From the NCBI RefSeq assembly GCF_035917455.1, contig NZ_CP109078.1:7858001-7922000 (forward strand): DNA of 64,000 nucleotides. The letters are read 5' to 3'. The notes beneath the pieces are model-generated. The model searched no databases and was not told where the DNA came from. It saw nothing but the letters and a program-made list of their open reading frames with translations. Position 1 is the first letter of the stretch; each line of letters starts with the position of its first letter. Below are positions 4,547 to 30,900 of the stretch, piece after piece. A program made the translations under genes and the position numbers. This DNA is from Micromonospora sp. NBC_01796 (GTDB taxonomy: Bacteria; Actinomycetota; Actinomycetes; Mycobacteriales; Micromonosporaceae).

Positions 4547-7500
4547 CTACTCGGAGCCGTCGTCCTCGAGGTCGCCCTCGGTCTGGACGTAGAGCTCCCG
4601 GAGGGCGTCGAGGGTGGCCTGCTCGGGGTGCTCCCAGAGGTGCCGGTCGGCCGCTTCGAGCAGCCGCTCGGTAATGCCGTGCAGTGCCCACGGGTTCGAC
4701 TCGGTGAGGAACTTCTGGTTCTCCGGGTCGAGCACGTACGTCTCGGCCAGTTTCTCGTACATCCAGTCGGCGACCACACCCGCCGTGGCGTCGTACCCGA
4801 AGAGGTAGTCGACGGTCGCGGCCAGCTCGAACGCGCCCTTGTAGCCGTGCCGGCGCATCGCGGCGAGCCAGCGCGGGTTGACCACCCGGGCGCGGAAGAT
4901 CCGGGCCGTCTCCTCGCTCAACGTACGGGTACGCACCGCGTCCGGCCGGGTGCTGTCCCCGATGTACGCCGCCGGTGCCTTCCCGGTCAGCGCCCGTACG
5001 GTGGCGATCATGCCGCCGTGGTACTGGAAGTAGTCGTCGGAGTCGGCGATGTCGTGTTCCCGGGTGTCGGTGTTCTTCACCGCCACCGCGATCCGCCGGT
5101 ACGCCGTCTCCATGTCCCCGCGCGCGGGGACCCCGTCCACGCCCCGGCCGTAGGCGTAACCGCCCCAGACCGCGTACACCTCGGCGAGGTCCGCGTCGTC
5201 GCGCCAGTTCCGGCTGTCGATCAGCGGCAGCAGTCCGGCACCGTACGCGCCCGGCTTGGAGCCGAAGATGCGCATGGTGGACCTTCGCTCGTCACCGTGC
5301 TCGGCCCGGTCGGCGAGGGCGTGTGCGCGTACGTAGTTCGACTCGGCCGGCTCGTCCAAGCCGGCGACCAGGCGTACCGCGTCGTCGAGCAGGGCCACCA
5401 CGTGCGGGAACGCGTCCCGGAAGAAGCCGCTGATCCGCATGGTGACGTCGATCCGGGGTCGGCCCAGTTCGGCCGGGTCGATCGGTTCCAGGCCGGTGAC
5501 CCGGCGGGACGCCTCGTCCCAGCGCGGCCGTACGCCGAGCAGCGCGAGGACCTCGGCGATGTCGTCACCGGCGGTCCGCATGGCGCTGGTGCCCCACATG
5601 GACAGTCCGACCGAGCGCGGCCACTCGCCGTTGTCGGCCCGGTAGCGGGCCAGCAGCGAGTCCGCCATCGCCTGCCCGGTCTCCCAGGCCAGCCGGCTCG
5701 GCACCGCCTTCGGGTCGACGGAGTAGAAGTTGCGGCCGGTGGGCAGCACGTTGACCAGGCCACGCAGCGGTGACCCGCTCGGGCCGGCGGCCACGTAACC
5801 GCCGTCGAGAGCGTGCAGCACCGCGGTCATCTCGTCGGTGGTCCGGTCCAGCCGGGGCACGATCTCGCCTGCCGCGAACTCCAGCACCCGGACGACCGGT
5901 TCGTGGTCGGCAACGGAGTCGCCGAGCACCCGCTCGCACACCTCGGCGCCGACGCCGGGGGTCCAGTCCCGCTCCTCCATCGCCAGCACCAACGCGCGGG
6001 CGGTCTCCTCGATCCGGTCCACCTCGACCCGGGCGGCGGTGCCGTCCTCGGTCAGGCCGAGCGCCTCGCGCAGGCCGGGCAGGGCGGCGACCTGACCGGC
6101 CCACATCTGCCGGGCGCGGAGCATGGCGAGCACCAGGTCGACCCGGTTCTGCCCGCTCGGCGCCACCCCGAGGACGTGCAGCCCGTCGCGGATCTGGACG
6201 TCCTTGACCTCGCAGAGCCAGCCGTCGACGTGCAGGATGAACTCGTCGAACTCGGCGTCGTGCGGCCGGTCGGCGAGGCCGAGGTCGTGGTCGAGCTTGG
6301 CGGCCTGGATCAGGGTCCAGATCTGGGCCCGGATCGCCGGTAGCTTCGCCGGGTCCAGGGCGGCGATGTTGGCGTGCTCGTCGAGGAGCTGCTCCAGCCG
6401 GGCGATGTCGCCGTAGCTGTCGGCGCGGGCCATCGGCGGGATCAGGTGGTCGACCAGGGTGGCGTGCGCCCGCCGCTTGGCCTGGGTCCCCTCACCGGGG
6501 TCGTTGACCAGGAACGGGTAGATCAGCGGCAGGTCGCCGAGGGCGGCGTCGGACCCGCAGGCGGCGGACATGCCGAGCGTCTTGCCGGGCAGCCACTCCA
6601 GGTTGCCGTGCTTGCCGACGTGCACCATCGCGTGCGCGCCGAACTCGTCGGCCAGCCACCGGTACGCGGCCAGGTAGTGGTGGCTCGGCGGCAGGTCCGG
6701 GTCGTGGTAGATCGCGACCGGGTTCTCCCCGAAACCGCGCGGCGGTTGGACCATCACCACGGTGTTGCCGGACCGCAGCGCGGCGAGCACGATCTCGCCG
6801 TCGGGGTCGCGGGAGGTGTCGACGAACAGTTCACCGGGCGCCGGTCCCCAGTGCCGTTCCATGCCCTCGCGCAGCTCGGCGGGGAGGGTGTCGTACCAGG
6901 CCCGGTAGCGGCTGGCCGGGATCCGGATCGGGTTGGCTTCGAGCTGTTCCTCGGTGAGCCAGTTGAGATCCTGACCACCGGCGGCGATCAGCGCGTGCAC
7001 CAGGGCGTCACCGTCACCGGCGGTCACTCCGGGGAACGCGTCGGGTCCGTCGGCGGGGCCGATGTCGTACCCCTGGTCGCGCATGGCGCTGAGCAGCCGG
7101 ACGACGCTGGCCGGGGTGTCGAGGCCGACGGCGTTGCCGATCCGGGCGTGCTTGGTCGGGTACGCCGACAGCATCAGGACGATCCGGCGGTCGGCCGGGG
7201 GGATGTGTCGCAGCGACCCGTGCCGGACCGCGATGCCGGCGACCCGCGCGGACCGTTCCGGGTCGGCGACGTAGACGGTCAGCCCGTCGGCGTCGATCTC
7301 CTTGAACGAGAACGGGACGGTGATGATCCGGCCGTCGAACTCGGGGATGGCGACCTGGGTGGCGGTGTCCAGCGGGGAGAGGCCGTCGTCGTTGTCCGCC
7401 CAGACGGCGCGGCTGCTGGTCAGGCAGAGCCCCTGGAGGATCGGCACGTCGAGGGCGGCGAGTGCGCCGACGTCCCACGCCTCGTCGTCGCCACCGGCAC

Positions 7501-8167
7501 CGGCGTCGGCCGGGCGGGTGCCACCGGCGGCGAGCACGGTCACGACCAGGGCGTCCGCCTCGCCGAGGGTCTCCAGCAGGGCGGGTGCGGGGCTGCGTAG
7601 CGACGCGCAGTAGACCGGCAGCGGCCGACCACCGGCGTCCTCGATCGCGGTGCAGAGCGTCTCGACGAACGCGGTGTTGCCGGCGACGTGGTGGGCCCGG
7701 TAGTAGAGGACCCCGATCACCGGCCCGTCGCTGTTGCGGGCCGCGCGCTCCAGCCGCCCCCACTCGGGGGTCGGCACCGGCGGGGCGAAGCCGTACCCGG
7801 TGAGCAGGATCGTGTCGGAGAGGAACCGGTGCAGCTCGGTGAGGTTCGCCGGGCCGCCGTGCGCGAGGTAGGCGTGGGCCTCCGCGGCCACCCCGGCGGG
7901 CACGGTCGAGCGGCGCATCAGCTCCGCGTCCGGTGCCTGCTCACCACCGAGGAGTACGACCGGCAGCGCCCCGGCCAGCAGCGCGTCCAGCCCCTCCTCC
8001 CAGGCGCGGTAGCCACCGAGGATGCGTACGACCACGAGGTCGACGCCGTCGAGCAGGGCGGGCAGGTCCTCGACCGAGGTACGGGCCGGGTTGGCCAGCC
8101 GGAAGTCGGCGCCACTGGCCCGTCCGCTGAGCAGGTCGGTGTCCGAGGTGGAGAGGAGCAGGATCAT
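4547..8167 (-). CDS. cobN: Cobaltochelatase large subunit CobN
   Basis: The 1206-residue protein is the H-type subunit of cobaltochelatase, which inserts Co(II) into hydrogenobyrinic acid a,c-diamide with ATP hydrolysis by an AAA partner. The start MILLLSTSDTDLLSGR is the usual CobN N-terminus, and the length fits CobN rather than ChlH/BchH. Blocks typical of the family include HVGKHGNLEWLPGKTLG and EHDIADSDDYFQYHGG. The AAA and VWA partner is probably the fused ChlI/ChlD protein at 28635-30650. The gene's own ribosome binding site is weak; its ATG overlaps the TGA of a short upstream ORF that follows a cobalamin riboswitch, so translation is probably coupled and repressed when B12 is plentiful. 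Confidence 0.95.
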   Translation of the reverse strand: MILLLSTSDTDLLSGRASGADFRLANPARTSVEDLPALLDGVDLVVVRILGGYRAWEEGLDALLAGALPVVLLGGEQAPDAELMRRSTVPAGVAAEAHAYLAHGGPANLTELHRFLSDTILLTGYGFAPPVPTPEWGRLERAARNSDGPVIGVLYYRAHHVAGNTAFVETLCTAIEDAGGRPLPVYCASLRSPAPALLETLGEADALVVTVLAAGGTRPADAGAGGDDEAWDVGALAALDVPILQGLCLTSSRAVWADNDDGLSPLDTATQVAIPEFDGRIITVPFSFKEIDADGLTVYVADPERSARVAGIAVRHGSLRHIPPADRRIVLMLSAYPTKHARIGNAVGLDTPASVVRLLSAMRDQGYDIGPADGPDAFPGVTAGDGDALVHALIAAGGQDLNWLTEEQLEANPIRIPASRYRAWYDTLPAELREGMERHWGPAPGELFVDTSRDPDGEIVLAALRSGNTVVMVQPPRGFGENPVAIYHDPDLPPSHHYLAAYRWLADEFGAHAMVHVGKHGNLEWLPGKTLGMSAACGSDAALGDLPLIYPFLVNDPGEGTQAKRRAHATLVDHLIPPMARADSYGDIARLEQLLDEHANIAALDPAKLPAIRAQIWTLIQAAKLDHDLGLADRPHDAEFDEFILHVDGWLCEVKDVQIRDGLHVLGVAPSGQNRVDLVLAMLRARQMWAGQVAALPGLREALGLTEDGTAARVEVDRIEETARALVLAMEERDWTPGVGAEVCERVLGDSVADHEPVVRVLEFAAGEIVPRLDRTTDEMTAVLHALDGGYVAAGPSGSPLRGLVNVLPTGRNFYSVDPKAVPSRLAWETGQAMADSLLARYRADNGEWPRSVGLSMWGTSAMRTAGDDIAEVLALLGVRPRWDEASRRVTGLEPIDPAELGRPRIDVTMRISGFFRDAFPHVVALLDDAVRLVAGLDEPAESNYVRAHALADRAEHGDERRSTMRIFGSKPGAYGAGLLPLIDSRNWRDDADLAEVYAVWGGYAYGRGVDGVPARGDMETAYRRIAVAVKNTDTREHDIADSDDYFQYHGGMIATVRALTGKAPAAYIGDSTRPDAVRTRTLSEETARIFRARVVNPRWLAAMRRHGYKGAFELAATVDYLFGYDATAGVVADWMYEKLAETYVLDPENQKFLTESNPWALHGITERLLEAADRHLWEHPEQATLDALRELYVQTEGDLEDDGSE

Positions 8168-8196
8168 CGGGCACCGCGCAGGGCGTGGCGTGACAT
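8164..8196 (-). CDS. 10-residue upstream ORF between cobalamin riboswitch and cobN
   Basis: The frame encodes MSRHALRGAR. Its ATG is preceded by a strong AGGGAGGA Shine-Dalgarno sequence at 8203-8210 with 6-nt spacing, and its TGA overlaps the cobN ATG as ATGA. A GC hairpin (CGGGG/CCCCG, 8211-8226) sits directly 5' of the Shine-Dalgarno. The same arrangement, with a 9-residue product, occurs before chlID at 30647-30676. The likely role is to carry ribosomes into cobN, so the riboswitch would control uORF initiation and cobN follows by coupling. That is inference from architecture; the peptide itself may have no function. Confidence 0.65.
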   Translation of the reverse strand: MSRHALRGAR

Positions 8197-8280
8197 GGTG
8201 GTTCCTCCCTCGGGGTCCGCGCCCCGGGTTCGTCGGTTGCGGCTCGGGGCGGGCCCGGACGGGTCCGCTCGATGCCGCGC

Positions 8281-8445
8281 GGTGACCCGGAGTCTCCTGG
8301 CTCCCGGATCGTCGCTCGCCCCGGTCTTCCCGCCCGTGTGGGCCGTGACCGTGTCGGGGTCCGCTCCCCGGTAACAGTGGCGGGACCGCGCCGGGATCAC
8401 ACCGGCTTCCTCCACCTGTCGCCGCGTTCAGCGGTTCTCACTCTC
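8281..8445 (-). promoter_or_regulatory. Cobalamin (B12) riboswitch controlling cobN
   Basis: Read on the minus strand, the leader contains the conserved blocks of the cobalamin aptamer in order: GGAAGCCGGTG-TGATCCCGG, then GCGGTCCCGCCACTGT (the B12-box region, 8374-8388), then GAGCCAGGAGACT (8291-8303). These are the diagnostic core segments of family RF00174. The 5' boundary is approximate because I could not pair P1 confidently. It lies about 85 nt upstream of the uORF Shine-Dalgarno, and no hairpin followed by T-run is seen, so control at translation initiation is more likely than termination. Confidence 0.9.
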
Positions 8446-26209: not shown

Positions 26210-26697
26210 CTCGTCTCCTCGCTGTGCCGATCCCCGCCGTGCCGATCCACGTCATGCCGATCTTCGCCGCCCCGGTCCACGGCGGCACGGTGGTGACGGT
26301 ACGTGTCCGGGTCGCCGGCCGGGGCGGCGACCGCCACCGTGGCCGTACCGTCGGTGTGCTTGGTGACCAGCAGGATCGGCTGCGCACCGGTGTCCCGTAC
26401 GGCACGCAGGGCGGCGGCTTCCGCCACGCTCGGCGTACCGACGGTGACCTGTGCCAGGGCGGACGGGTGCGGCACCCGCTCGCCGGCCAACGCCTCCGCC
26501 GGGTAGCCCAGCAGGGGCCAGCCCCGGCGGGCGGCGACCTCGACCAGGGCCGGCGACGCGGCCCGCCGATCCACGGTCGCCAGGGCGGTCACCCGGGCCG
26601 GGTCCAACCCGTTGCCGGCGAGCGTCGCACCGATCAGCGTGTCGAGGTCGTCGGCGTGCACCGCCGACCGGGCCCCGACACCGACGATCAGCGACAC
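26206..26697 (-). CDS. cobE: CobE/CbiG C-terminal domain protein
   Basis: The 163-residue protein starts at GTG 26697. It begins VSLIVGVGARSAVHADDLD and continues with VTALATVDRRAASPALVEVA and VPHPSALAQVTVGTPSVAEA, the usual CobE/CbiG_C signature. CobE is associated with the aerobic route and in other bacteria has been linked to corrin intermediate binding. After about residue 130 the domain is followed by a His/Asp/Arg-rich tail (YRHHRAAV, EDRHDVDRHGGDRHSEE) built from GTGCCGATC-like DNA repeats, not part of the usual domain. It overlaps cobB by 10 bp upstream and the FDOR start by 4 bp downstream. Confidence 0.88.
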   Translation of the reverse strand: MSLIVGVGARSAVHADDLDTLIGATLAGNGLDPARVTALATVDRRAASPALVEVAARRGWPLLGYPAEALAGERVPHPSALAQVTVGTPSVAEAAALRAVRDTGAQPILLVTKHTDGTATVAVAAPAGDPDTYRHHRAAVDRGGEDRHDVDRHGGDRHSEETR

Positions 26698-28037
26698 GCG
26701 GCGACCAGGTTCCGGGCCAGCGACGGCTGACCCGCCCAGTGCAGATGCAGGTACGAGGCGTGCACTCCCCCGGCGACGAAGCCCTCCGGTGCCGCGTCCC
26801 GCCACGCCCAGGCGGGCGCCCGACCGGCTCGGGGGGTGATCGTGGTCCGGTGGAACTCGTGCCCGGTGACCCGGGTGCCGGTCGGCGCCAGCACACTGTC
26901 GGTCAGCGCGACCGCGTCCCGGTAACCCAACGTGAGCCGGCTGGTCATCACCGCCTCGGCGTCCAGGACCCCGCACATCGGTGCCCCGTCCAGGCTGCGG
27001 CAGAGCCAGAGCAGGCCGGCGCACTCGGCGGCGATCGGGGCGCCGGATGCGGCCAGCCGGGCGACCTCGGCGCGCAGCGGGGAGTTGGCGGTGAGCTGTT
27101 CGGCGTACACCTCGGGGAAGCCGCCGCCGACGACCAGGGCCGCCGTGCCGGGGGGCAGCGTCTCGTCGTGCAGCGGGTCGACCACGGCTACCTCGGCACC
27201 GGCCGCGCGCAGCAGTTCGGTGGTCTCCGCGTACCCGAAGCTGAAAGCCGGACCACCGGCGACCGCGACCACCGGGCGCGGCCCGGTCACGGCGACCGTC
27301 GGCGGCTCCCACGGTTGGACGGCCAGCGGCGGCGCGCTGCGGGCCACCCCGAGTACGGCGTCCAGGTCGACGCTCTCCGTGATCAGGCTGGCCAGCGCGG
27401 CCACCGATTCGAGTGCCTCGGCCCGCCGCTCCACCGCCGGCACCAGCCCGAGGTGGCGGGACGGGGCGGCGATCACCGCGTGTCGACGCAGCACCCCCAG
27501 CACGGGCGTGCCGACCTCGGCGCAGGCGTCCCGGAGCAACTCCTCGTGCCGGTCCGAACCGACCCGGTTGAGCAGGACCCCGGCGATCCGGATCGCCCCG
27601 GTCGCGGCCGAGCCGAAGGAGCGGAAACCGTGCACCAGGGCGGCCACCGAACGGGCCTGCGCGGAGGCGTCGACGACCAGCAGCACCGGCGCGTCGAGCA
27701 GGGCGGCGACGTGTGCGGTGGAGCCGAAGTCTCCGGCGCCGACCCGCCCGTCGTACAGGCCCATCACGCCCTCGACCACGGCGAGGTCGGCACCGGCCGC
27801 ACCGTGCGCGAACAGCGGCCCGACCAGGTCCTCCCCGACCATGACCGGGTCCAGGTTGCGCCCGGGTCGGCCGGCGGCGAGGGTGTGGTAGCCGGGGTCG
27901 ATGTAGTCCGGACCGACCTTGAACCCGGCCACCCGCACACCCCGTGCGGCGTACGCGGCCAGCAGCCCGGTCGCGACGGTGGTCTTGCCGTGCCCGGAGG
28001 CGGGTGCCGCGATGACCAGTCGGGGAACCGTCACCAC
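26688..28037 (-). CDS. cobB: Hydrogenobyrinic acid a,c-diamide synthase CobB/CbiA
   Basis: The 449-residue glutamine-dependent amidotransferase amidates side chains a and c with ATP. The N-terminal P-loop domain shows LVIAAPASGHGKTTVATGL and GFKVGPDYIDPGYH, with VVEGVMGLYDGR. The C-terminal class I glutamine amidotransferase-like domain has IAAECAGLLWLC with the catalytic Cys and a late HEFHRTTI. It starts at GTG 28037 overlapping the cobO stop. Confidence 0.95.
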   Translation of the reverse strand: MVTVPRLVIAAPASGHGKTTVATGLLAAYAARGVRVAGFKVGPDYIDPGYHTLAAGRPGRNLDPVMVGEDLVGPLFAHGAAGADLAVVEGVMGLYDGRVGAGDFGSTAHVAALLDAPVLLVVDASAQARSVAALVHGFRSFGSAATGAIRIAGVLLNRVGSDRHEELLRDACAEVGTPVLGVLRRHAVIAAPSRHLGLVPAVERRAEALESVAALASLITESVDLDAVLGVARSAPPLAVQPWEPPTVAVTGPRPVVAVAGGPAFSFGYAETTELLRAAGAEVAVVDPLHDETLPPGTAALVVGGGFPEVYAEQLTANSPLRAEVARLAASGAPIAAECAGLLWLCRSLDGAPMCGVLDAEAVMTSRLTLGYRDAVALTDSVLAPTGTRVTGHEFHRTTITPRAGRAPAWAWRDAAPEGFVAGGVHASYLHLHWAGQPSLARNLVAACR

Positions 28038-28633
28038 TCGATGCCCTGCTGGCCCTTGCGGCCGGCGTCCATCGGGTGCTTCACCTTGGTCATCTCGGTG
28101 ACCAGGTCGGCGAGGTCGACCAGATCCGGGTGTGCGTCCCGGCCGGTGATCACCACGTGCTGGTTGCCCGGCCGATCACGCAGCGTGGCGACGACGTCGT
28201 CAATGTCGATCCAGCCCCACTTGATCGGGTACGTGAACTCGTCCAGCACGTAGAAGCGGTACGCCTCGGCGGCCAGGTCGCGTTTGATCTGGGCCCAGCC
28301 CTCGGCCGCCTCGACCGCGTGGTCACGCTCGGTGCCGGGGCGCTGGATCCAGGACCAGCCCTCGCCCATCTTGTGCCAGACCACGGTGCCGCCCTTGCCG
28401 CTCTCCCCGAGCGCCCGCAGCGCGGTCTCCTCGCCGACCTTCCACTTGGGGCTCTTCACGAACTGGAAGACGGCGATCGGCCAACCCGCGCTCCAGGCCC
28501 GCAACGCCATCCCGAACGCGGCGGTCGACTTGCCCTTGCCCTGACCGGTGTGCACCGCCGTGACCGGCTGGCGGCGCCGCTCCCGGGTGGTGAGACCGTC
28601 GTCGGGGACCTGCTCCGGCTTGCCCTGGGGCAT
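28031..28633 (-). CDS. cobO: Cob(I)yrinic acid a,c-diamide adenosyltransferase CobO
   Basis: The 200-residue CobA/CobO-type adenosyltransferase forms the Co-adenosyl bond from ATP. Seen are the P-loop VHTGQGKGKSTAAFG, the Walker B-like YVLDEFTYPIKWGW and HVVITGRDAHPDLVDLADL near the end. It begins 1 bp after the chlID stop, so the two are tightly co-translated. Confidence 0.96.
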   Translation of the reverse strand: MPQGKPEQVPDDGLTTRERRRQPVTAVHTGQGKGKSTAAFGMALRAWSAGWPIAVFQFVKSPKWKVGEETALRALGESGKGGTVVWHKMGEGWSWIQRPGTERDHAVEAAEGWAQIKRDLAAEAYRFYVLDEFTYPIKWGWIDIDDVVATLRDRPGNQHVVITGRDAHPDLVDLADLVTEMTKVKHPMDAGRKGQQGIEW

Positions 28634-28634
28634 C

Positions 28635-30650
28635 TCAGGCCGCCTTTCCGAGAGTGTGCAGCGCGTCCAGCGGGACGCAGTCGGCGTCGAGCGCGGTGGC
28701 GAGCCGCCGGGCCAGCCCGAGCCTGATCGGCCCCGACTCGCAGTCGACCACCACGGAGGCGACGTCGGCCAGCGACGGCACGACGGTCAACGGGTCCGGA
28801 CCGCTGGTCGCCCGACCGTCGGTCACCACCACCAGCAGGGGCCGGCGGCGCGGGTCGCGGCGGCGTTCGGACTCCAGGGTCCGGGCCGCCTGGCGCAGGC
28901 CGGCGGCGAGCGGGGTACGGCCACCGGTGCGCAGTTCGGCCAGGCGCAGCACACCGACCTCGTGGCTGGCGGTCGGTTCCAGCACCGTGCTCGCCCCGGT
29001 ACCCCGGAACGTGATCATGCCGATCTTGTCCCGCCGCTGGTAGGCGTCGCGCAGCAGGGACAGGACGGCGGTCTTCACCACCCTCATCCGGCGGCGGGCC
29101 GCCATCGACCCGGAGGCGTCCACCACGAAGAGCACCAGGTTCGCCTCCCGCCCGACGTGCACCGCCTCGCGCAGGTCCGCGGCGCTGACCGTGCGGGCTC
29201 CGCGCCGGGCGGTGGCCAGCAGGGTGGCGGGCAGGTGCAGGCTGGTCAGCCGGCCGGCCGGCAGCCGGGCCCCGACCACCCGACCCCGCCGGGCGTACGC
29301 CGGGGAGCGGCGGCCGGTGTGCGCGCCGGTCCCCCGTCCGCGTACGGCCAGGGCGCGGGTCCGGTACGGGCTCGTCGCCGCGACCGTCGGCTGGTTCCCG
29401 GCGGTCGGCTGTTCCGTCGTCTGCTCCTCCGTCCGCTGCTCCGGTACGGGTTGTTCGGCCGGGTCGGTCTGCTCCGGTCCGGTGGCCTGCGGGGGCGGCC
29501 CGTCGGATGTGTCCGGCCCCCGGTCGGGTCCACCCGGTGGCGGGCCACCGTCGGGTCCCTCCGGCGGACCGTCGGGCGGCCCTCCGTCCGGGTCGTCGTC
29601 GGGTCCGGCCGGCGGGTCGGGCTCCGGATCGGCGTCCGCGCCGTGCTCCCGCAGCAACTCCTCGAGTTTCTCCTGGTCGGCGCCGGGCGGGTCGAGCGGG
29701 TCCCGGCGGCGGCGGTGCGGCAGGGCGAGCCTGGCCGCGGCGGCCACGTCGTCGGCGGTCACCACGTCCCGGTCGTGCCACGCGGCGAGCGCCACCGCCG
29801 TCCGGGCCACCACGATGTCGGCGCGCAGCCCGTCCACCCCGTACGCGAGGCAGATGGTGGCGATCCGGTCCAGTTCGTGGTCGGGCAGCCGCACGCCGGG
29901 CAGCCGTCGGCGGGCGACCGCGATCCGCTCGGCGAGTACGGCATCCTCGTCGATCCAGCGCGCCGCGAAGCCCACCGGATCCGTCTCGTACGCGAGCCTC
30001 CGCCGGACCACCTCGGCCCGGGGAGCCGTCTCGCGGGGCGCGGTGACCGCGACCACCAGCCCGAACCGGTCCACGAGCTGGGGGCGGGGTTCGCCCTCCT
30101 CCGGGTTCATCGTGCCGACGAGCAGGAACCGGGCCGCGTGCTTGACCGACACCCCGTCGCGTTCGACGTGCGCCCGACCCATCGCGGCGGCGTCCAGCAG
30201 CAGGTCCACCAGATGGTCCGGCAGCAGGTTGACCTCGTCGACGTAGAGCACCCCGCGATGGGCGGCGGCGAGCAGCCCCGGCTCGTACGCCTTGATCCCG
30301 TCGGCGAGGGCACGTTGCAGGTCGAGGGTGCCGACCACCCGGTCCTCGGTGGCGCCGACCGGCAGCTCGACCAGGGTGGCGCGGCGCCGCTGGCCGACCG
30401 CCCCCGGTTCGTGCGGGCCGTCCGGGCAGTCCGCGTCCGGGTTGGCCGGGTCGCAGGCGAACCGGCAGCCGGGGACGACGTCGACGTCGGGCAGCAGCGC
30501 CGCGAGCGCCCGGACGATGGTCGACTTGGCGGTGCCCTTCTCACCCCGGACCAGCACCCCGCCGATCGCCGGGGAGACCGCGTTGAGCAGCAGGGCCAGC
30601 CGCAGTTCGGCCAGGCCGACGACGGCGGAGAACGGGTACGGCGGGGTCAT
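28635..30650 (-). CDS. ChlI-ChlD fusion, ATPase subunit of cobaltochelatase
   Basis: The 671-residue protein fuses a ChlI/BchI AAA ATPase (about 1-330) with a ChlD/BchD VWA domain (about 470-671). The AAA part has VRGEKGTAKSTIVRA (Walker A), GVLYVDEVNLLPDHLVDLLL (Walker B) and FLLVGTMNPEEGEPRPQL. The VWA part has the MIDAS motif FVVDASGSMAARRRM. Residues about 345-430 are a Pro/Gly/Asp-rich acidic linker, as in ChlD. In actinobacteria this fusion replaces CobS/CobT and drives CobN, encoded at 4547-8167. It is first in the operon chlID-cobO-cobB-cobE-FDOR-cobL-cobM and follows a riboswitch and short uORF; its ATG overlaps the uORF stop. Confidence 0.93.
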   Translation of the reverse strand: MTPPYPFSAVVGLAELRLALLLNAVSPAIGGVLVRGEKGTAKSTIVRALAALLPDVDVVPGCRFACDPANPDADCPDGPHEPGAVGQRRRATLVELPVGATEDRVVGTLDLQRALADGIKAYEPGLLAAAHRGVLYVDEVNLLPDHLVDLLLDAAAMGRAHVERDGVSVKHAARFLLVGTMNPEEGEPRPQLVDRFGLVVAVTAPRETAPRAEVVRRRLAYETDPVGFAARWIDEDAVLAERIAVARRRLPGVRLPDHELDRIATICLAYGVDGLRADIVVARTAVALAAWHDRDVVTADDVAAAARLALPHRRRRDPLDPPGADQEKLEELLREHGADADPEPDPPAGPDDDPDGGPPDGPPEGPDGGPPPGGPDRGPDTSDGPPPQATGPEQTDPAEQPVPEQRTEEQTTEQPTAGNQPTVAATSPYRTRALAVRGRGTGAHTGRRSPAYARRGRVVGARLPAGRLTSLHLPATLLATARRGARTVSAADLREAVHVGREANLVLFVVDASGSMAARRRMRVVKTAVLSLLRDAYQRRDKIGMITFRGTGASTVLEPTASHEVGVLRLAELRTGGRTPLAAGLRQAARTLESERRRDPRRRPLLVVVTDGRATSGPDPLTVVPSLADVASVVVDCESGPIRLGLARRLATALDADCVPLDALHTLGKAA

Positions 30651-30676: not shown

Positions 30677-30730
30677 GCTCAAGTCCCTTCCGCGGGTGTC
30701 CACGCCCGCGTGTGGCTGGGTGTCACCGAG

Positions 30731-30900
30731 CGGTCGGAGTCTCCTGACTCCCGGATCGACGCTCCCCCTCGACCTTCCGGCCGCTCGGCCGTGGCCCGTA
30801 CGTGAGGGGTCGCTCCCCGGTCACAGTGGCGGGACCGCCCCGGACTCGCACCGGGTTCCTCCGCGCACCGCTCGTGCAGGCCATGCTGTCCCACCGACCG
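30731..30900 (-). promoter_or_regulatory. Cobalamin (B12) riboswitch controlling the chlID-cobM operon
   Basis: On the minus strand the core blocks are GGAACCCGGTGCGAGTCCGG, GCGGTCCCGCCACTGTGACC and GGGAGTCAGGAGACTCCG in the order of RF00174. A P1 stem CGGTCGG (30894-30900) pairs with CCGACCG (30731-30737), fixing the boundaries well. No intrinsic terminator separates it from the uORF, so translational control is more likely. Confidence 0.93.

Follow-up and report, generated by a model that had tools for sequence, protein, structure and literature searches.

The closest described relative of the leaders reported here is that of M. tuberculosis ppe2, in which a compact B12 OFF switch carries the Shine-Dalgarno (SD) sequence of an out-of-frame upstream open reading frame (uORF) that overlaps the gene start in an AUGA motif (Kipkorir et al. 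2024, PMC11260477). In that account, reporters and tagged proteins showed that PPE2 requires translation of the uORF (uPPE2) and is produced mainly by termination-reinitiation, and the system has been described again as a translational relay (PMC12713380). The B12 riboswitch of M. tuberculosis metE also has a translated uORF, uMetE2, but here the uORF sits within the aptamer itself and represses the gene, unlike the layout of cobN and chlD described below (PMC11260477). A word search of PMC11260477 returned no mention of cobN, Streptomyces or actinobacteria, and within the literature searched, outside of which most subscription papers fall, we found no description of a uORF relay at either cobN or chlD.

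We examined a stretch of 64,000 nt from Micromonospora sp. NBC_01796 (the window) that holds two leaders of this type, one ahead of cobN and one ahead of a cobaltochelatase D/I-type gene, chlD. They share with ppe2 the compact aptamer, the SD placed on an out-of-frame uORF, the AUGA overlap and a gene with no obvious SD of its own (ppe2) or a weak one (cobN and chlD). They differ in their targets: ppe2 with cobQ and cobU in M. tuberculosis, as against cobN in the first window leader and chlD, followed by cobO and cobB, in the second. They also differ in the uORF, which in ppe2 ends in poly-proline and is longer (as estimated from its 6.3 kDa FLAG-tagged form) than the 9-10 codons found here. 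In further contrast to ppe2, two putative relays lie in one window and their layout recurs in several actinobacterial families. A preliminary description of the cobN leader had mentioned a mycobacterial precedent for a uORF mechanism; this precedent is real and close, and the relay mechanism is therefore not new. By analogy with it, cobN and chlD are best read as two further ppe2-type relays, located at core B12-biosynthesis genes. What would be new is the recurrence of the design and a constraint that appears to act on the uORF stop only, the mechanism being known in kind. A single published case would thus become a recurrent design at core genes of B12 biosynthesis.

Two cobalamin riboswitch leaders in the window

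The anatomy that the preliminary description had read from the cobN leader is present in full: an aptamer, a GC hairpin directly followed by the strong SD of a 10-codon uORF, the overlap of the uORF TGA with the cobN ATG, and a weak ribosome site of cobN itself, with an SD duplex energy of -3.0 kcal/mol (Table 1). The aptamer, for which a search with the RF00174 model had been proposed, scored well above the cut-off. Both window aptamers are compact (121 and 123 nt) and align, with few non-standard pairs, to positions 46-168 of the 189 positions of the model in cmscan, a span in which the B12 box and the four-way-junction core are present. Class IIb is assigned by junction motifs (GGAA in J3/4, J6/3); in the cobN leader, a GGAA was seen by eye at the start of the aptamer. 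RF00174 models the aptamer and not a uORF relay, and both window matches end ahead of the platform.

Table 1. Features of the cobN and chlD leaders and their genes (window coordinates; SD strengths are duplex energies)
Feature	Position	Strand	Evidence
Compact cobalamin aptamer, cobN leader	8291..8411	-	cmscan, RF00174, 81.8 bits, E 1.3e-18, cut-off 31.5
Loop L5, GGUCC, the complement of GGACC in the hairpin that follows (kissing loop proposed)	8383..8387	-	sequence; proposed pairing
P13/L13 expression-platform hairpin, CGGGG-CGCGGA-CCCCG (loop CGCGGA)	8211..8226	-	fold and conservation
uORF SD, AGGGAGGA	8203..8210	-	-11.9 kcal/mol
uORF MSRHALRGAR, 10 codons + stop (ATG TCA CGC CAC GCC CTG CGC GGT GCC CGA TGA)	8164..8196	-	sequence; identical in G000, G010, G048
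ATGA, uORF stop/cobN start overlap	8164..8167	-	sequence
cobN, cobaltochelatase subunit	4547..8167	-	TIGR02257, 1128 bits, cut-off 822
Second compact cobalamin aptamer, chlD leader	30738..30860	-	cmscan, RF00174, 76.5 bits, cut-off 31.5
P13/L13 hairpin, CGCGGG-CGUGGACA-CCCGCG (loop with GGAC)	30691..30710	-	fold, conservation, two-sided changes
Second uORF SD, GGAAGGGA	30684..30691	-	-6.2 kcal/mol
Second uORF MASARLSGR, 9 codons	30647..30676	-	sequence; ATGA overlap with chlD-type gene
ATGA, second uORF/chlD overlap	30647..30650	-	sequence
chlD, cobaltochelatase D/I-type subunit	28635..30650	-	TIGR02442 (putative cobaltochelatase), 741.6 bits, just below cut-off 779.45
cobO (cob(I)yrinic acid a,c-diamide adenosyltransferase), behind the second putative relay	28031..28633	-	NF004637, 260.5 bits, cut-off 185
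cobB (cobyrinic acid a,c-diamide synthase), behind the second putative relay	26688..28037	-	NF002204, 505.8 bits, cut-off 254

The chlD leader presents the same order of elements as the cobN leader: aptamer, hairpin, SD, uORF and ATGA. The name chlD is our own label, given that the best NCBIfam match of the gene falls slightly under its cut-off; we take its product to be the AAA-VWA subunit.

Both leaders occur in all three genomes examined for the genus (G000, G010 and G048). The cobN aptamer is almost unchanged among them, and the cobN uORF with its ATGA overlap is identical letter by letter, so that this uORF itself offers no codon-level test; the linker ahead of it differs by a 1-nt indel as well as by substitutions. 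Within the genus, the differences in the chlD uORF are GCG/GCA and AGC/AGT, both synonymous third-position changes, together with a 3-nt in-frame deletion in G048 that yields MAARLSGR and retains frame and overlap.

Upstream of the cobN aptamer (positions 8469-8440, minus strand) lies a candidate promoter consisting of TTGACG and, 18 nt on, GAGAGT; the pair is kept in the three genus genomes and only the spacer differs. With regard to the predicted folds, a clear anti-SD helix was found in neither the bound nor the free state. A minimum-energy fold of a short segment paired the uORF SD with near-start cobN codons, and we did not trust it. The opening codons of cobN (CTGCTCCTCTCC, positions 8160-8140, minus strand) are able to form this pairing in the predicted fold.

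The expression platform and its layouts across the Actinomycetes

To place the two leaders in a wider context we collected cobN and chlD leaders from the family and the class. Among 121 Micromonosporaceae genomes, the CobN N-terminus was detected in 73 and chlD in 94, weak matches counted; the class-wide chlD search covered 197 genomes, of which 96 had a match at 1e-30. The cobN leaders came from 80 + 30 + 40 loci, 149 after removal of one that was too short (L162). The 80, taken from a public genome collection, are the best of 571 confirmed loci, that is, those most like the window CobN, and hence an uneven sample, and the family matches set aside were the three weakest full ones and two that were split or weak. 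The chlD leaders came from 30 + 40 + 29 + 40 loci (139); the remaining family matches were mostly split or weak, and those set aside from the class were 11 weaker ones and 16 starting at query residue 88 or later. This gave 288 classified leaders, of which 264 were distinct after a stricter removal of near-copies; a first de-duplication (282 of 288) is the basis of the counts given below for stop overlaps, SD energies, platform stems, start codons followed by A and peptide changes, and for the family chlD uORFs by genus and by length.

The classifier is anchored on the P13 hairpin and recognises the platform by motif rather than by an RF00174 score of each leader. It favours an in-frame start near -4, and a uORF ending elsewhere would still appear as 'outframe', a flag raised for L008, L092, L208 and L221. 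Some leaders were relabelled by hand: L303, where no riboswitch is visible, was removed from the uORFs; L008 became an in-frame extension; L092 and L221, misread as out-of-frame, became direct starts; and L345, read as an in-frame stop, became a true uORF of 26 codons. L208, L223, L286, L291, L296, L301 and L307 look operon-internal or platform-less and were grouped as non-platform.

A stem of no fewer than 4 bp is formed in 190 out of the 196 platform leaders, and its outer pairs change on both sides (C-G, G-C, A-T). The stability of the hairpin was unremarkable against shuffles (z of -0.47 for cobN and -1.16 for chlD), so that what speaks for P13 is conservation and the two-sided changes of the outer pairs, not stability. 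The L5 sequence GGUCCC and the loop CGNGGA are mutually complementary and almost invariant, hence show no covariation, and an L5-L13 kissing loop may be proposed; the positions mutated in M. tuberculosis metE, conserved L5 cytidines and the GG of L13 (PMC11260477), match these near-invariant sequences. Distinct platform leaders number 185; the L5 motif (GGTCCCGCCACTG-like) lies upstream in 181 of them, among these each of the 55 that have a uORF. The four leaders that miss it (L053, L175, L219 and L341) are all of the direct layout, and L341 may lack a riboswitch altogether.

The layouts that follow this platform differ between the two genes. Related actinobacterial cobN riboswitches have the same aptamer type, and many have the same hairpin GGGGCGMGGACCCC and SD GAGGGAGGA. 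Of 132 distinct cobN leaders, 26 had no recognised platform; in the other 106, the SD stands directly at cobN in 61 and ahead of an in-frame N-terminal extension in 33, both without a uORF, and an out-of-frame uORF is present in 12. In the case of chlD, also with 132 distinct leaders, 79 had the platform (43 uORF, 33 direct, 3 in-frame extension) and 53 did not (46 no platform, 7 other), many of the platform-less ones appearing operon-internal by eye. The uORF at cobN has 10 codons in the window genus, 10 in G020 (MLIVAGRVTA), 26 in Streptosporangium, 34 in Planobispora, 16 in Planomonospora, 21 in Saccharopolyspora and 27 in Actinopolyspora.

The preliminary description had made conservation of the uORF among the cobN leaders of Micromonosporaceae a test of its reading. 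At cobN this expectation failed, the uORF being found in 4 of 69 classified loci (3 of 54 distinct) and in two genera, while related genera mostly have the SD straight at cobN or ahead of an in-frame extension. The same expectation fared better at chlD, with a uORF in 30 of 65 distinct family leaders and in 11 of the 25 genera examined; it has 8 codons in 30 of 34 family chlD uORFs. Beyond the family, 13 of 22 distinct chlD platform leaders in the class have a uORF, of 9 to 55 codons. On a tree of 108 CobN N-termini (91 with a layout), whose deep branches are weakly supported and which does not include G020 and L242, the uORF label needs 3 changes against a shuffled mean of 11.5, and a single origin of the cobN uORF would remain compatible with its starred branches.

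The classifier listed 32 in-frame cobN extensions, and 31 of them have 5-11 codons (the exception, L051 with 64 codons, is doubtful, and the hand-added L008 is the 33rd). In two genera (g32 and g23) they have 8-9 codons and occupy the position of the 10-codon uORFs. CobN extensions of 5-11 codons starting from the riboswitch platform SD were noted in L148, L150, L152, L026, L031 and others, and annotated cobN starts may be mis-set where such an extension exists.

Layouts also differ within a genus. In g18, 5 chlD loci have a uORF and 1 starts directly: the SD is directly at chlD in L194, the uORF has 2 codons in L195, and it has 8 codons in L189, L191, L192 and L198. L194 and L195 suggest that the mini-ORF was lost or shortened in nature. 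Related genera, and even members of a single genus, thus carry closely similar platforms with or without a uORF, and the contribution of a landing-pad uORF to riboswitch control could be tested by exchanging such leaders.

An apparently constrained stop, the owner of the SD and the proposed relay

We consider it likely that the cobN leader is a translational B12 OFF switch that acts on cobN through a uORF relay. Without B12, the strong uORF SD would be exposed and the 10-codon uORF translated; the ribosome would terminate at the TGA shared with the cobN start codon, and either it or its 30S subunit would begin again on cobN. With B12 bound, L5 would kiss L13 and lock the hairpin that adjoins the SD, the uORF would not be started and cobN would be silenced along with it. 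In such a scheme the position of the stop would matter and the peptide would not. The preliminary description had suggested that the riboswitch gates the uORF and that cobN is reached only by coupling. Anatomy and comparison speak for the gating and for a coupling, as it is the uORF that the conserved hairpin-SD platform serves, its stop is fixed onto the gene start and the second riboswitch is built alike; B12 binding, the OFF direction and the kissing loop are presumed, and the dependence of cobN on uORF translation is suggested by analogy with M. tuberculosis ppe2. If the relay operates in this way, a reporter fused solely to the gene start would not capture the step under control.

All 57 platform uORFs (13 cobN, 44 chlD; L303 excluded and L345 not included) end in a -4 overlap NTGA on the gene start, a count of leaders related by descent and not of 57 independent events. 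Where a leader lacks a platform uORF, its out-of-frame ORFs starting with ATG or GTG end in this way in 41 of 179 cases (cobN) and 16 of 92 (chlD). Inside uORF leaders, the other out-of-frame ORFs do so in 5 of 22 cases at cobN and in 39 of 75 at chlD; of these 39, 29 start upstream in the open frame of the platform uORF, which accounts for the high value. The overlap requires an A after the start codon. In the direct layout this A is present in 40 of 66 cobN and 13 of 34 chlD leaders, and all uORF leaders have it by definition. The overlap is kept each time in platform uORFs of 2 to 55 codons, with lengths that differ between and within lineages (16, 26 and 34 codons in the Streptosporangium group; 17, 23, 27, 33, 36, 55 and others in class-wide chlD). 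Among uORFs of equal length, 6 of the 24 distinct codon differences of a single base are synonymous and 18 nonsynonymous; the synonymous share, 25%, compares with 30% under equal weight for every single-base change. With the stop locked at varied lengths and no synonymous excess, it appears that the position of the stop is constrained and the peptide is not, the peptides evolving about neutrally.

These data also bear on a less likely alternative, in which the cobN uORF is a neutral by-product. A frameshift would have cut off a former in-frame extension, cobN surviving since an NTGA happens to lie at its start; the uORF would be tolerated and add no regulation, and coupling would merely keep cobN expressed. 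The frequency of in-frame extensions among cobN platform leaders, their narrow range of lengths, their location in g32 and g23 at the spot of the 10-codon uORFs, the lack of a synonymous excess in the peptides and the switch of layouts inside g18 are all in line with this possibility. The chlD leaders argue against it, inasmuch as a uORF present in more than half of the distinct platform leaders, and of 8 codons in most family cases, looks maintained, an observation that shared descent could explain too. The by-product alternative and the relay agree on the mechanism and differ in adaptive value only. As for the relay in its broader form, we give even weight to the proposal that, far from being peculiar to mycobacteria, it is a recurrent and maintained platform of Actinomycetes, common at chlD and with several origins at cobN, in which selection would act on the stop and the efficiency of reinitiation, not the SD alone, would set the amount of cobaltochelatase made per switch event.

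We then compared to which start codon the SD belongs, taking SD strength as the duplex energy to the anti-SD string ACCUCCUUU. In the window, the uORF values (Table 1) stand against the -3.0 kcal/mol of cobN given above and -2.3 kcal/mol for chlD. Across the chlD leaders, the gene's own SD lies above -5 kcal/mol in 37 of 44 cases when a uORF is present (median -2.25) and at or below -5 kcal/mol in all 34 of the direct layout. At cobN, 9 of 13 uORF leaders have a fair SD of their own (at or below -5 kcal/mol); these belong to Saccharopolyspora, Actinopolyspora and the Streptosporangium group and none to the window genus, and in G020 it is weak (-4.5 kcal/mol). Coupling may consequently not be strict in those nine leaders, where reinitiation may be SD-assisted or partly independent. 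The same nine leaders are the evidence in favour of a rather unlikely alternative, namely that cobN initiates independently at its own ATG and that the uORF is incidental or mildly inhibitory, as reported for the metE uORF of M. tuberculosis. The weak SD of cobN in the window genus, the weak own SD of chlD in most of its uORF leaders, and the stops locked onto the gene start without exception speak against independent initiation.

Two further explanations are very improbable. A programmed -1 frameshift at ATGA, producing CobN with a uORF-encoded N-terminal extension, would recall the in-frame extensions of relatives and the fusion product reported for ppe2, but that product is minor (PMC11260477), inspection of CGATGA by eye revealed no slippery heptamer, and uORF lengths and sequences vary widely. 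A small peptide acting in trans would fit the identity of MSRHALRGAR in the three genus genomes, and yet the uORF peptides have no common sequence and their changes include no synonymous excess over expectation.

Cobalamin leaders at other genes

The genome of the window contains 7 RF00174 matches, 5 of them above the cut-off, including the 2 of the window. The other three that pass the cut-off are of 197, 218 and 236 nt and span positions 1-189 of the model. We read all seven leaders, and a platform uORF is found in only two, those of cobN and chlD. At four of the other riboswitch-linked genes, which we take to be bluB-, metE-, ribonucleotide reductase- and cbtB-like, the presumed start is preceded by an SD-like stretch. 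The weakest match (L007, C1:6202720-6202851; 25.8 bits, sub-threshold) precedes a presumably BtuF-like gene that has its own AGGAGGA; an 11-codon ORF, MHWILDRQEDP, ends with ATGA on the gene start and has no clear SD of its own.

Outside cobN and chlD, a compact B12 aptamer followed by the same hairpin-SD platform was noted in L254 (G125) and L255 (G142), upstream of genes that are presumably cobD-like. ORFs of 19 and 35 codons follow the platform there, and their stops lie near the presumed gene start without an NTGA.

Full-length riboswitches were considered as a negative control, but of 29 loci read 3 were flagged, and this unclean set was not used to derive a rate. One flagged locus, L242, turned out to precede cobN and to carry a 41-codon uORF ending in GTGA, which lies outside the counted set, and another, L229, is a 2-codon ORF within the gene. 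In L232 (G151), which follows a full-length RF00174 match, a possible 24-codon uORF with a weak SD overlaps the start of a gene that we take to be permease-like in an ATGA, making it a possible candidate for a relay at a transporter behind a full-length aptamer.
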